Shown in pieces: positions 1,255 through 30,452 of a stretch of 32,801 nt of DNA. The stretch lies in the IMG/VR virus record IMGVR_UViG_3300034061_001988, positions 1 through 32,801 of that record. The stretch is one strand, 5' to 3'. The notes under the pieces are model-generated. The model made no database searches. It was not told where the DNA came from and saw nothing but the letters and a program-made list of their open reading frames with translations. Each line of letters starts with the position of its first letter. The stretch's first letter is position 1. The position numbers and the translations under genes are program-made. Source of the DNA: a virus.

Positions 1255-1440
1255 CTATCCCTTGAACCACTTGGGCCGCAAGGCCCGCAACTGCCACAAA
1301 CGCGCCTGGGGAACCCTATCGCCCCATTGGCTGATCGCCTGGCGCGTAATGCCCAGCAACTTGGCCAACGCCACGGCGCTGCCCGCTTTTTCAATTGCTT
1401 GATGTGTTTCCATGGCTGCATGGTAAGCCAACTTTCGCAT
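1255..1440 (-). CDS. Cro-like helix-turn-helix repressor
   Basis: The 61-residue product has a clear helix-turn-helix around residues 22-45 (AVALAKLLGITRQAISQWG), the pattern of Cro/YdaS-type phage repressors in which the recognition helix carries RQAISQW. It is the first gene of the leftward early unit and abuts the control region at 1451-1505. AAGGTG lies eight bases before the ATG at 1440, which supports that start; an in-frame ATG at 1410 has no ribosome site. It probably binds the palindrome at 1475-1494 and represses its own and the divergent promoter. No CI-like partner is visible, so it may be the only repressor of this switch. Confidence 0.8.
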   Translation of the reverse strand: MRKLAYHAAMETHQAIEKAGSAVALAKLLGITRQAISQWGDRVPQARLWQLRALRPKWFKG

Positions 1441-1472: not shown

Positions 1473-1492
1473 GGGCTTTACAACGGTGTAAA
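1464..1492 (-). promoter_or_regulatory. Putative leftward early promoter (to the Cro-like gene)
   Basis: On the minus strand TTTACA (1492-1487) is followed after 17 bases by TACAAA (1469-1464), four of six matches to the -10 consensus. Transcription would start near 1457, giving a very short leader before the ATG at 1440. The -35 lies in the right arm of the palindromic operator. Confidence 0.45.
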
Positions 1493-1494
1493 GC
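1475..1494. promoter_or_regulatory. Perfect 8-4-8 palindromic operator between divergent early promoters
   Basis: GCTTTACA and TGTAAAGC flank the spacer ACGG with no mismatch. Each arm contains a -35-like TTTACA, one facing each way, so a dimer bound here would block both divergent promoters. The adjacent Cro-like protein is the obvious candidate ligand; binding itself is inferred. Confidence 0.7.
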
Positions 1495-1505
1495 TGGCTT
1501 AATAT
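1477..1505 (+). promoter_or_regulatory. Putative rightward early promoter
   Basis: TTTACA at 1477-1482 and TAATAT at 1500-1505 are separated by 17 bases. Transcription would start near 1512 and run into the LPD29-like gene at 1555. The -35 lies within the left arm of the operator. Confidence 0.6.
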
Positions 1506-1554
1506 TCGTCTATGCCCTAGCGAATTGCACGGGGTCTTTTAAAAGGAAACAATC

Positions 1555-2097
1555 ATGGCTCAATATCTCTCTTGCACTGAAACCGCAAAATTGGTTCGCG
1601 CTGCTCTCAAAGAGTCTTTCCCTGGCGTTAAGTTCAGCGTCAAGTCCAGCAATTATTCTGGCGGCGCCAGCATCAACATTTTTTACAACGACGGCCCAAC
1701 CTACGAACAAGTCAAGGCTGTGGCTGGTATGTTTGAGGGCAGTTATTTTGACGGCATGACAGATTACAAAGGCAGCAATTACGGCAGCCTGGACGGCAAC
1801 GAAATTCGGTTTGGCGCTGACTTCATTTTTGTTACTCGCGAATTTAGCGTTCCAGTTTTGCAAAACGCCGTCAAGGCTGCTTGCGAATACTACGGTTACG
1901 CGATGCCAGCAATTGGTGAAGGTTATTTTGGCGCCCGCATTGTTGACCAGCTTGATTACGAAACCGACCGCCGCATCATGGTAAAGGTTGGTCAAGTTAG
2001 CTTGGTGGCCACTCAGCCCAGCGCAACATTGGCCCGCGTCGGCTTCTTGGGCGATGACGGTTACGGCTGGAACGCTGTTGGCCGTAAGGCTGCATAA
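1555..2097 (+). CDS. Stand-alone LPD29-like protein
   Basis: The first gene of the rightward early operon encodes 180 residues. Residues 4-75, containing LSCTETAKLVRAALKESFPG, VKFSVKSSNYSGGASI and YNDGPTYEQVKAV, look like LPD29, a 'large polyvalent protein associated domain' normally found within long multi-domain proteins of phages and conjugative elements. Here it stands alone with a further region (about 75-180) rich in aromatic and glycine residues. A good ribosome site (AAAGGAAAC) precedes the ATG. The biochemical role of LPD29 is not known to me. Being first in an early operon suggests a host take-over or counter-defence task, but that is inference. Confidence 0.65.
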   Translation: MAQYLSCTETAKLVRAALKESFPGVKFSVKSSNYSGGASINIFYNDGPTYEQVKAVAGMFEGSYFDGMTDYKGSNYGSLDGNEIRFGADFIFVTREFSVPVLQNAVKAACEYYGYAMPAIGEGYFGARIVDQLDYETDRRIMVKVGQVSLVATQPSATLARVGFLGDDGYGWNAVGRKAA

Positions 2098-2107
2098 GGG
2101 GAAAGCC

Positions 2108-2206
2108 ATGAACCGCGAACCAACCGATCTGGAAATTGTGGGCATGGCACTGGTGATCGCGCCGGTGCTTTACATCTTGCTGTGGCTTGCCATGGCCATC
2201 TTTTAA
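2108..2206 (+). CDS. Small single-span membrane protein (32 residues)
   Basis: AAGGGGAAAG precedes an ATG that opens a 32-residue frame. Residues 1-9 are polar and acidic (MNREPTDLE), and 10-32 form one hydrophobic segment (VGMALVIAPVLYILLWLAMA). It sits between two early genes with ten bases to the upstream stop. No family is recognised. Ribosome site, spacing and clean hydrophobic profile support it as real. Confidence 0.6.
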   Translation: MNREPTDLEIVGMALVIAPVLYILLWLAMAIF

Positions 2207-2216
2207 GGGGGACGAA

Positions 2217-2384
2217 ATGACAGTCCGAATCACCAAAGTTCATCGCGGGGGCCGCGTGTTCTACGCCGCCACCGTCAGCGGTGTTTACCTGGAACGCGCC
2301 AGCCTGGCCGAATTGCGTGAAGCCATTGCAGTTCGTGAAGGATTTGCAAAATTATTTGCGAAACCTGTTGACACTGCCAGTTAA
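2217..2384 (+). CDS. Hypothetical early protein
   Basis: The start was set at the ATG at 2217, preceded by AAGGGGGAC, rather than an in-frame ATG ten codons upstream that overlaps the membrane-protein gene. The 55-residue product begins with a basic beta-rich segment (MTVRITKVHRGGRVFYAATV) followed by a helix (LAELREAIAVREGFAKL). No domain is recognised. Its last codons overlap the -35 box of the promoter at 2368-2397. Confidence 0.6.
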   Translation: MTVRITKVHRGGRVFYAATVSGVYLERASLAELREAIAVREGFAKLFAKPVDTAS

Positions 2385-2397
2385 GCCAGCTTACAAT
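2368..2397 (+). promoter_or_regulatory. Strong sigma70-like promoter inside the early operon
   Basis: A consensus TTGACA (2368-2373) is followed after 18 bases by TACAAT (2392-2397), five of six to the -10 consensus. Transcription would start near 2404, ahead of the gene at 2439. It would give the recombination genes expression separate from the repressor-controlled promoter. Confidence 0.65.
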
Positions 2398-3014: not shown

Positions 3015-3347
3015 ATGACACGACTACCATTTGAAATTGACGGCCCGTATAGGGCCAAGCGCAACCCCGCCAAGCGTTATGCGGCCATCGCTGTTGCGGT
3101 GATCGCTGGCGCTGCTGTACTGCTGCTGTCGGGCTGCTCTAGTCTCCCACCCAACACAACGTTGGACGCGCAACAGCAACTGATCCTGGACAAACAGGTT
3201 CAGCCAATGTCGCGCAATGAAGTCATCACCGCGGTGACTGAATGCACATCCAGCGGCCTTCGCGCTGTGATGCTCTACGGCAAACGCAAAGTTAACAACT
3301 TCACGACCGACATCGTGGTGGATGTGACTTGCGCCCCGAAATATTGA
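3015..3347 (+). CDS. Putative phage lipoprotein
   Basis: The 110-residue product has a basic stretch (RAKRNPAKR, about 13-21), a hydrophobic segment (23-38) and a lipobox LSGC with Cys41, followed by SSLPP, typical of a lipoprotein processed by signal peptidase II. The mature part (about 70 residues) has two further cysteines that could pair. The N-terminal extension before the hydrophobic segment is long for a signal peptide. It is placed among early genes rather than lysis genes, so it is unlikely to be an Rz1 spanin. Early phage lipoproteins often block superinfection at the envelope; that role here is inferred. Confidence 0.65.
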   Translation: MTRLPFEIDGPYRAKRNPAKRYAAIAVAVIAGAAVLLLSGCSSLPPNTTLDAQQQLILDKQVQPMSRNEVITAVTECTSSGLRAVMLYGKRKVNNFTTDIVVDVTCAPKY

Positions 3348-3357
3348 AAGGAAAATC

Positions 3358-3939
3358 ATGGACACGTTTAGCAAAGTCGCATCGGCCCTGGTCAAAGCGC
3401 AAAAGGAATTTGGCCCCGCGCTGAAGTCATCCAGCAACCCGCATTTCAAATCGCGTTACGCCGACCTGGCTGCGTGTGTTGAAGCGGTGGTGGAATCACT
3501 CAACAACAACGGCATCGCATTGACGCAACGCGTCAGCCCTTCGGACAACGGCGTGATTGTCGAAACCGTGTTCATTCACGAATCCGGTGAAATCATCAAC
3601 TGCGGACAGTTGCACGTACCAGCCAGCAAACACGACGCCCAGGGTTACGGCAGCGCGTTGACGTATGCCCGCCGTTACAGCCTCATGGCGGCCTGTGGCA
3701 TCGCTCCGGAAGATGACGACGGCAACGCGGCCAGCAAGCGGCCAACAGCGCCAGCAATTCCGACGCCTGACATCACCGACCACCTGGCAGCCATCCAGGC
3801 CAGCGCCAACAGCGACGAATTGGCCAAGGCGTTCAAGGATGCGTTTGCAGCTTGCCAGGGCAACCAGGCATTGCAAGCCAAAGTGATGGCAGCCAAAAAA
3901 GAACGCGTGGCTCGCGCTAAAAAGGAACAAGCGCAATGA
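3358..3939 (+). CDS. erf: ERF-family single-strand annealing recombinase
   Basis: This 193-residue protein carries the ERF signature at about residues 91-124: KHDAQGYGSALTYARRYSLM, then CGIAPEDDDGNAA. The N-terminus (VASALVKAQKEFGPALKSSS) also fits. ERF proteins of P22 and relatives form rings that anneal complementary single strands during phage recombination and genome circularisation. The C-terminal 65 residues are A/K-rich and less conserved. GAAAGGAAAATC precedes the ATG. It is directly followed by a YqaJ exonuclease with an ATGA overlap, giving an annealase-exonuclease pair as in Red-type systems. Confidence 0.93.
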   Translation: MDTFSKVASALVKAQKEFGPALKSSSNPHFKSRYADLAACVEAVVESLNNNGIALTQRVSPSDNGVIVETVFIHESGEIINCGQLHVPASKHDAQGYGSALTYARRYSLMAACGIAPEDDDGNAASKRPTAPAIPTPDITDHLAAIQASANSDELAKAFKDAFAACQGNQALQAKVMAAKKERVARAKKEQAQ

Positions 3940-4676
3940 TTAAACATAAGCCTGAATGCGCGTCATTGACCAGGCTTTTGTTGTCAATGCCACCACAACC
4001 AGCGCCTTGCGATTGCGGGGCAATTGAATACATACAAGGAACCAAAAAAATGACTGACGAAATCGAACAACGCACCGACGAATGGTTTGCCGCCCGCCTG
4101 GGCAAGGTCACCGCGTCCAAGGTGGCCGACGTGATGGCCCGCACAAAGTCGGGTTACAGCGCCAGCCGCGAAAACTACATGGCCCAACTGGTGGTCGAAC
4201 AAATCACCGGCACACGCCAGGAATCGTTCAGCAACAGCGCCATGCAATGGGGAACCGACCAGGAACCCTTTGCCCGCGGCGCGTATGAAGCGACCAGCGG
4301 CAACATGGTGGAGGAAGTGGGCTTTATGAACCACCCGACCATCGCCATGGCTGGCGCGTCACCCGACGGCCTGATTGGCGACGACGGATGCGTGGAAATC
4401 AAATGCCCCAACACGGCCACCATGATCGAAACGCTGTTGACCGGCGCCGTGCCGCAAAAGTATTTCACGCAAATGCAAATGCAAATGGCCTGTGCTGGCC
4501 GTGCCTGGTGCGACTACGTGGTGTTTGATCCACGGATGCCAGCCAAGGCGCAACTGTTCATCAAACGCGTACCGCGTGACGATGTGTTCATCGCTGACAT
4601 GGAAGCGGAAATCATCAAGTTCTTGGCCGAAACCGCGGTCAAGGTCGATCAACTTAAAAAAATCATTGGGGAATAA
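3936..4676 (+). CDS. YqaJ-family (lambda Exo-like) recombination exonuclease
   Basis: The core shows the YqaJ pattern: RTDEWFAARLGKVTAS near residues 46-61, WGTDQE with Glu110, SPDG with Asp144, and the catalytic ExK as EIK at 154-156, followed by a glutamine-rich QMQMQM segment. Such enzymes resect one strand from dsDNA ends and feed the annealase. Two starts are plausible: ATG 3936, coupled to the ERF stop, and ATG 4050 (Met39), which has its own AAGGA and begins exactly at the conserved domain. Both have ribosome sites. The extra 38 residues contain a CDC motif and MPPQPAP and look coding, so I kept the longer form; the shorter may also be made. Confidence 0.9.
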   Translation: MIKHKPECASLTRLLLSMPPQPAPCDCGAIEYIQGTKKMTDEIEQRTDEWFAARLGKVTASKVADVMARTKSGYSASRENYMAQLVVEQITGTRQESFSNSAMQWGTDQEPFARGAYEATSGNMVEEVGFMNHPTIAMAGASPDGLIGDDGCVEIKCPNTATMIETLLTGAVPQKYFTQMQMQMACAGRAWCDYVVFDPRMPAKAQLFIKRVPRDDVFIADMEAEIIKFLAETAVKVDQLKKIIGE

Positions 4677-4939: not shown

Positions 4940-5218
4940 ATGGCCAAACTTATCAACGAAATCACCGTCATCACCGGCACGTACACCAACAGCCAGGGGC
5001 AGCAAAAGAACCGCTACCAGCGTATCGGTTCGATCATCGAAACAAAGAACGGGCCAATGCTAAAAATCGACGTGATCCCCCTCAAAGAGGGCGGCTGGGA
5101 TGGCTGGGCATACATCAACGAACCACGCGAACGCGACGACCAGCCGCAGCAGCGTGGGCGCCAAGCGCCGCAAAGCAGCGGGTTTGACGACATGAACGAC
5201 GACTTGCCAAACTTCTAA
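4940..5218 (+). CDS. SSB-like single-stranded DNA binding protein (putative)
   Basis: The 92-residue product starts with beta strands (INEITVITGTYTNSQGQ, RYQRIGSIIETKNGPMLKI, WDGWAYINEP) like a small OB-fold. It then has a flexible Q/R/P-rich stretch and ends in an acidic tip DDMNDDLPNF. An acidic tail ending in a hydrophobic residue is the hallmark of bacterial and phage SSB proteins, where it binds partners. Placement just after an annealase and an exonuclease supports a ssDNA-binding role. The family match is by pattern only. Confidence 0.6.
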   Translation: MAKLINEITVITGTYTNSQGQQKNRYQRIGSIIETKNGPMLKIDVIPLKEGGWDGWAYINEPRERDDQPQQRGRQAPQSSGFDDMNDDLPNF

Positions 5219-29962: not shown

Positions 29963-30223
29963 TTAATCTTCGACCACGCAAGCGATGTCGGCTTCCTGGA
30001 TGATCTGGTAATCCTGGCCTTCAAAACGCTGTACGGGCCAATCCAGGTATGTCCCGTTGCCGTATTTGATTTTGTCGCCCACCTTGATTTCATGCACCTG
30101 GGGGCCGATGGCCACAATTTCGCCTTCGTTGAATTTTTCGGTGTTCTTGACGTAAATGATGTCTGACAGGTTTCTGACAAACGGCTTTACAACAACACGG
30201 TCATGCAGCGGGCGCAGTTGCAT
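29963..30223 (-). CDS. GroES-like co-chaperonin
   Basis: The 86-residue product opens with the GroES signature MQLRPLHDRVVVKPFVR and continues with a mobile-loop-like segment (NLSDIIYVKNTEKFNEG, about 18-34). GEIVAIG, VGDKIKYGNGTYL and EADIACVVE follow and mirror host GroES (GEVLAVG, VGDIVIFNDGYG, ESDILAIVE). The hydrophobic IIYV in the loop would bind GroEL. The start at 30223 has AAGGAAG upstream and overlaps the previous gene. Like T4 gp31 it may redirect host GroEL to fold the phage coat protein. Confidence 0.85.
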   Translation of the reverse strand: MQLRPLHDRVVVKPFVRNLSDIIYVKNTEKFNEGEIVAIGPQVHEIKVGDKIKYGNGTYLDWPVQRFEGQDYQIIQEADIACVVED

Positions 30224-30452
30224 TTTTTGGCTTCCTTCCAGGTTTCTTACGTTCGACCGGCACATCGGCCATCTTGGTTTCGTCGGTGGTGATGTCGTAC
30301 ACAGGCAAAGAAACCATCTTGATGGTTTGCTCAACGTATTCGCCGCACCAATCCATTTCGTGCTTGTTTTGGAACGTGGGGTAGCGACGGCAGCCGCCAA
30401 TGACCTGGCCGTTAATGAAAAAACGACAGGTTTTGCAGTGGACGTCACTCAT
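30201..30452 (-). CDS. Small cysteine-rich protein with AT-hook-like tail
   Basis: The 83-residue product has cysteines 6, 9, 21 and 36 (CKTC, GGCRRYP, DWCGEY), a probable zinc or iron-sulphur site often seen in small phage proteins. The C-terminal KKPGRKPKN contains GRKP, close to the AT-hook core GRP. It starts in an ATGA overlap with the previous gene and its end overlaps the GroES-like start. DNA binding is possible but unproven. Confidence 0.65.
   Translation of the reverse strand: MSDVHCKTCRFFINGQVIGGCRRYPTFQNKHEMDWCGEYVEQTIKMVSLPVYDITTDETKMADVPVERKKPGRKPKNATAPAA

Follow-up and report, generated by a model that had tools for sequence, protein, structure and literature searches.

A stand-alone LPD29 gene in an exchangeable first early position of a P22-like phage, a candidate counter-defence gene shared with conjugative plasmids

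LPD domains were originally delineated from proteins believed to accompany the DNA on entry, although several of them also occur solo, outside polyvalent proteins, and the LPD30–LPD29 linkage was named in the same work (Iyer et al., 2017, PMC5512222). In IncN2 plasmids, an ArdK-controlled regulon extending from CUP-4 to CUP-1 has been described, in which ardB lies behind CUP-4 and which includes orf792 (PMC5371602). Leading regions have been described as hotspots of anti-defence genes in which many families are uncharacterised (PMC11541004), and in archaeal viruses shared early regulatory sequences have served to find anti-defence genes (PMC11065993).

The DNA analysed here (the window) is the whole of IMG/VR record IMGVR_UViG_3300034061_001988, 32.8 kb. 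Its minus strand carries genes for the portal, head closure protein Hc3, scaffold, major head protein, terminase and ejection proteins, and judging from the portal, head, terminase and ejection genes this freshwater phage is a P22-like podophage. By portal, its closest sequenced relatives are uncultured spring-water phages and a Xanthomonas phage. A product similar to the co-chaperonin GroES (phrog_3188) was noted at 29963–30448. On the plus strand, an early rightward operon comprises the LPD29 gene, small ORFs, Erf, YqaJ and a small ORF occupying the SSB position; its left neighbours, encoded by the minus strand, are a P22_Cro-like repressor gene and a DUF1376/primosomal replication gene. The features of this region are as follows.

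1255..1440, minus strand: P22 Cro/YdaS-like HTH repressor gene, divergent from LPD29 (PF14549, 48.2 bits)
1424..1435, no strand: third operator-like site, before the Cro start; a weaker copy of the palindrome
1475..1494, no strand: perfect inverted repeat GCTTTACA-ACGG-TGTAAAGC spanning the -35 region, possibly a second set of operator half-sites
1477..1505, plus strand: promoter of the LPD29 operon, TTTACA-17-TAATAT (conserved TTGACA-17-TAAYAT in relatives)
1490..1501, no strand: operator-like palindrome AAAGCTGGCTTA over the -10 region (kept in 58/65 distinct upstream regions)
1541..1551, plus strand: ribosome-binding site AAAAGGAAACA ahead of the ATG at 1555
1555..2097, plus strand: LPD29 protein gene, 180 aa, ATG start (Pfam LPD29, 83 bits; AlphaFold pLDDT 91, pTM 0.85)
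2108..2206, plus strand: 32-aa membrane peptide gene, the 3' border of the exchangeable slot
2217..2384, plus strand: 55-aa early ORF
2368..2397, plus strand: second early promoter, TTGACA-18-TACAAT, with the exact palindrome TAAGCCAGCTTA (2382–2393)
3358..3939, plus strand: Erf-like ssDNA annealing protein (PF04404, 85 bits; phrog_2324)
3936..4676, plus strand: YqaJ/RecE-like exonuclease (PF09588, 111 bits)
4940..5218, plus strand: small ORF at the SSB position of the recombination cassette (PHROG matches weak and of unknown function; SSB-like by reading only)

Thus, LPD29 heads the rightward operon and diverges from the P22_Cro-like HTH gene (48 bits), as the original prediction of a first early gene had it. 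A small ORF at 3015–3347 resembles a lipoprotein and matched, weakly (E 0.0065), the Cor superinfection exclusion family. The gene order recurs in 84 related viral loci, with Cro in 74/84, Erf in 70/84 and YqaJ in 67/84, many of the loci without Cro, Erf or YqaJ being short contigs; where found, Cro was divergent and immediately upstream of LPD29. That LPD29 shares its operon and order with Erf and YqaJ in most of the viral loci favours the chief rival explanation, namely, that LPD29 is an accessory of the phage recombination or replication machinery (Erf, YqaJ and the SSB-like protein) that handles newly entered or single-stranded DNA. Virion packaging of LPD29 followed by injection, as for polyvalent proteins, is a possibility that draws on the kind of proteins in which LPD domains were defined (PMC5512222); nevertheless, the gene lies in the early block behind the repressor gene, on the strand opposite to the head and tail genes, and nothing suggests that the protein enters with the DNA, as had been thought of its class, which makes this the most improbable of the readings considered.

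The sole Pfam match of the 180-aa product in hmmscan was LPD29 (PF18847, E 2.5e-23, 83 bits against a gathering score of 27 bits), covering residues 6–98 of the protein and positions 2–93 of the 93 in the profile. The predicted LPD29-like domain is thereby borne out, the profile search having returned neither an absence of LPD29 nor a structural protein. The product also matched phrog_15549, annotated as of unknown function (94.6 bits), and no NCBIfam family. In IMG/VR, 98 homologous stretches were detected, and viral scans with the LPD29 proteins of an Aphanizomenon phage and of Paenibacillus as queries found nothing. A tblastn search matched LPD29 in 404 plasmid records, annotated mostly as "LPD29 domain-containing protein". 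The plasmid and phage LPD29 proteins read were mostly 133–301 aa long, and the longer forms were fusions, namely, DUF3560–LPD29 in Aeromonas, a 698-aa Paenibacillus protein and a 1047-aa Geobacillus phage protein; in addition, an LPD30–LPD29 fusion was seen in an F-like Providencia plasmid. The window protein itself, with 180 aa and one Pfam domain, falls outside the class of large polyvalent proteins, which are large multidomain polypeptides. The premise that very large proteins are the usual setting of LPD29 thus does not hold for most of the genes met, and the stand-alone state, which had been taken as unusual, is the common form of LPD29 rather than an exceptional one, as the plasmid records and the solo LPD domains already described (PMC5512222) both indicate.

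The LPD29 protein consists of a conserved domain (residues 1–97), a variable middle (98–155) and a conserved C-terminal tail (156–176; about 25 residues, SxTLARVxFLGDDGYG). The conserved core of the family, FPxxKFSVR..S...DGP..xxV...F....FDxMxD ... R, is present in the window protein, and residues L18, P23, F27, G47, P48, V53 and R95 were invariant among 17 diverse phage and plasmid members. Since versions from Burkholderiales and from plasmids of Xanthomonas fragariae and Serratia also carry the tail, the unit is the whole protein of 180–200 aa, extending beyond the Pfam domain. The gene had a dN/dS of 0.18 over 381 pairs, indicating purifying selection on the protein, which together with the 98 homologous stretches marks the ORF as more than a chance reading frame. 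The values for neighbouring genes were 0.07–0.15; LPD29 evolves faster than they do, by a modest margin, and its middle segment shows faster evolution. There was no support for positive selection, with median dN/dS below 1 in every part.

Of the structural work proposed with the original prediction, the modelling succeeded, whereas the comparison returned no meaningful solved relative. The AlphaFold model is confident (pLDDT 91, pTM 0.85), with an alpha-beta-beta-alpha-beta core; in the PDB, the best Foldseek E was 0.13, and VIA gave Z ≤ 6.2 to BON, OsmC and MamM-CTD domains, as high as common arrangements would be expected to score, beyond which the fold searches of the PDB yielded nothing. 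No match was obtained when PDB chains were searched by sequence and by profile. Confident matches in BFVD were LPD-type by name or unnamed, with a function known for none of them. The window LPD29 protein was without a match in PADLOC, and no known anti-defence protein was matched by it in the sequence, profile, PADLOC and fold searches; no solved anti-restriction protein was among its sequence or fold matches. A DNA mimic of the ArdA/Ocr type was rejected on charge, as the window protein is not strongly acidic (pI 5.2, net charge -2); across the family, pI ranged from 4.65 to 9.7, and that of plasmid LPD29 proteins reached 8–9. Rather than working as an enzyme or by mimicking the charge of DNA, LPD29 most likely functions as a folded binding protein.

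The upstream region agrees with the predicted repressor-controlled promoter, TTTACA-17-TAATAT accompanied by an operator-like palindrome. Upstream of LPD29 homologues, the promoter takes the form TTGACA-17-TAAYAT, with the palindrome TAAGCYRGCTTA covering the -10 region. At no more than two mismatches, the palindrome was present in 58 of the 65 distinct LPD29 upstream regions versus 4.5% of random 130-mers from the same loci, and a sigma-70-type promoter scoring at least 9/12 was present in 52/65 versus 12.5% of random 130-mers; the two usually overlap. Within the window alone, the palindrome motif was not beyond chance (4 seen versus 1.35 expected). The strong ribosome site that had been claimed is also there, AAAAGGAAA standing ahead of the LPD29 ATG, and a ribosome site was found in all 65 distinct upstream regions. 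We infer that the Cro-like protein binds the palindrome, a putative operator. At 1411–1440, the start of the Cro-like gene is likely the internal ATG (1413), to which a promoter lies so near that the mRNA could be leaderless. The promoter at 2368–2397, inside the early operon, is strong (11/12), and an exact copy of the operator palindrome falls within its spacer and -10 region.

Comparison of close relatives revealed that the occupant of the first early position varies. In the viral locus L181, the Cro, YqaJ and SSB-like proteins were 98–99% identical to those of the window, and the DNA was about 98% identical across the operator, promoter and ribosome site (AAAAGGAA); this locus is without LPD29, an unrelated 86-aa ORF follows the ribosome site, and from the stop codon into the next gene the DNA is again nearly identical to that of the window. 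Among 24 phages with the Cro gene and a YqaJ at least 86% identical, LPD29 was found in 17 and the 86-aa gene in seven, the carriers beside L181 being L188, L189, L192, L193, L198 and L201 (in L201, one small ORF further on); in none of the viral loci examined did the two occur together. On the YqaJ tree, the presence of LPD29 required at least 11 changes, 5 of which were forced by well-supported branches. There are also phages with 94–99% identical YqaJ and SSB-like genes in which LPD29 is absent altogether, and in a more distant relative, L218, a DUF932 gene (L218:1471–2460) is the first early gene, in the slot of LPD29. DUF932 also adjoins LPD29 on a Burkholderia plasmid. As the YqaJ-based search turns up relatives without it, the LPD29 gene is dispensable, and on these sequence comparisons it is an exchangeable single-gene cassette, which is new here.

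The alternative proteins form a family of 86–88 aa (L181:4036–4296, MKFYVTNGxEKARVWYSRG...TDTMTDYFEKGRVRIF) without a Pfam match. Members were also found in Shewanella and Variovorax phages and on a Paraburkholderia plasmid, upstream of an anti-restriction gene. The protein gave a confident model and no convincing solved match in structure searches. No remote relationship to LPD29 was detected, profile comparison giving a probability of 1.5% that rests on eight residues (TDTMTDYF/FDGMTDYK). It should be noted that exchange is not peculiar to the LPD29 slot, because the Erf and DUF1376 early genes also vary among close relatives. The middle of the DUF1376 replication gene (721–1080) is swapped among otherwise near-identical relatives, which makes this gene mosaic as well. 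In L188 and L189, extra ORF pieces located between the early ORFs of 55 aa and 70 aa resemble a cytosine methyltransferase (HPPCTDLSVSG), apparently split.

The exchangeable slot bears on three of the rival explanations. The coexistence of near-identical recombination genes with the absence of LPD29 weakens the recombination or replication helper described above. An early-operon regulator, in the position of lambda N or an anti-repressor, would agree with a first gene behind a repressor-controlled promoter; against this reading, which is highly unlikely, unrelated proteins substitute while the promoter and downstream genes stay unchanged, Pfam finds no DNA-binding domain in the LPD29 protein, and the second promoter with the same palindrome directly serves the downstream genes. 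The first early genes of phages are often host-takeover or toxic proteins, and LPD29 could be such a protein, shutting off, for example, host transcription or division with no defence countered, as both the exchangeable slot and the faster evolution of the middle segment would allow. Nevertheless, plasmids, to which the death or arrest of the host would be costly, retain the family, and this explanation is improbable, more so than that of a recombination helper, even if tight repression could permit it.

On conjugative plasmids, LPD29 often adjoins the transfer origin and anti-restriction genes in the records surveyed, which were selected and do not constitute an enrichment test. It lies beside anti-restriction genes in IncN plasmids, the F-like Providencia plasmid and a Leclercia plasmid, near an anti-restriction gene in Aeromonas pAsa9 (fused to DUF3560), and near transfer genes on Pantoea, E. 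coli and Citrobacter plasmids. The Leclercia plasmid (L176) has one 89-nt promoter element before six genes, including ccgD, LPD29 and ardA, with 41 nt between the end of the element and the ATG for LPD29 and 42 nt for ardA. In an IncN plasmid (L088), one element occurs four times, ahead of an anti-restriction gene, LPD29 (792 bp) and two other genes; this layout fits the published CUP regulon, and by length and order the LPD29 gene of IncN would correspond to orf792. Thus, in at least two plasmid types, LPD29 stands behind the same promoter element as ardB or ardA. Leading regions also hold SSBs and replication, partition and toxin–antitoxin genes, and location alone is therefore no proof of counter-defence. 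Some plasmid LPD29 copies adjoin DUF3991/TOPRIM and partition genes, with no anti-restriction gene within reach.

These plasmids likewise speak on both sides of the chief rival: the neighbourhood of some copies (a DUF3991/TOPRIM gene, ParB, SSB) favours a recombination or replication helper, whereas no annotated Erf or YqaJ was present in the stretches read of LPD29-bearing plasmids, and the promoter element of LPD29 in L176 is that of ardA. Overall, a helper function is unlikely. The exchangeable slot, the location in plasmid leading regions and the regulon common with ArdA/ArdB make anti-defence the leading candidate and lend circumstantial backing to the original prediction in this respect. 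The conserved early promoter and operator-like site, and the modestly faster evolution of LPD29 relative to its neighbours, point the same way.

LPD29 is therefore viewed as probably an early establishment factor acting in counter-defence. When the DNA enters a naive cell, the repressor would be absent and LPD29 would be made at once; it would then bind and block a host factor that attacks or limits incoming DNA (restriction, nuclease, SOS or another defence component), and the Cro-like repressor would later switch it off. The occupant of the slot (LPD29, the 86-aa protein or DUF932) would vary by phage according to host defences. The explanation as a whole, that LPD29 is an accessory establishment gene of earliest infection and a candidate counter-defence binding protein, is given a probability of about 0.5 from the sequence evidence. 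The wider proposal that LPD29 is a counter-defence family of phages and conjugative plasmids, and the slot behind the Cro-type promoter of these phages a hotspot in which the 86-aa and DUF932 proteins are further, unrecognised counter-defence families, is more tentative and stands at somewhat below even odds.

The LPD29 family is widely distributed, in about 400 plasmid records and many phages, and has a name but neither an assigned function nor a solved relative. Two independent types of element, in the phage early operon and in the leading region of conjugative plasmids, place it under repressors expected to release on entry, and the phage slot constitutes a natural swap experiment in which the promoter, ribosome site and downstream genes are constant while the occupants differ. 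The convergent phage and plasmid evidence together with this natural one-gene swap makes the function of LPD29 testable, and reading the occupants of the slot offers a route to further candidate families.

In comparison with the described systems, the window protein shares with Pfam LPD29 (PF18847; Iyer et al., 2017, PMC5512222) the domain over its full profile length (83 bits), whereas it is short and stand-alone, has a conserved C-terminal tail and, unlike the Providencia plasmid protein, is not fused to LPD30. The leading-region LPD29 of IncN plasmids is similar in its domain and in repressor-controlled expression alongside anti-restriction genes; it differs in its size (263–301 aa), its extra N-terminal part and its ArdK/TrfB-like regulator, in place of which the phage has Cro. 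The DNA mimics ArdA and Ocr resemble LPD29 as small proteins with early or leading-region expression, but are strongly acidic, whereas the window LPD29 is not. The early anti-defence genes of archaeal viruses (PMC11065993) are likewise unrelated small genes behind one conserved early regulatory sequence; here, by comparison, the element is a bacterial phage with a Cro-type operator and one slot, and the function is a candidate one. LPD29 would be one more accessory early gene that aids establishment, a kind already known.
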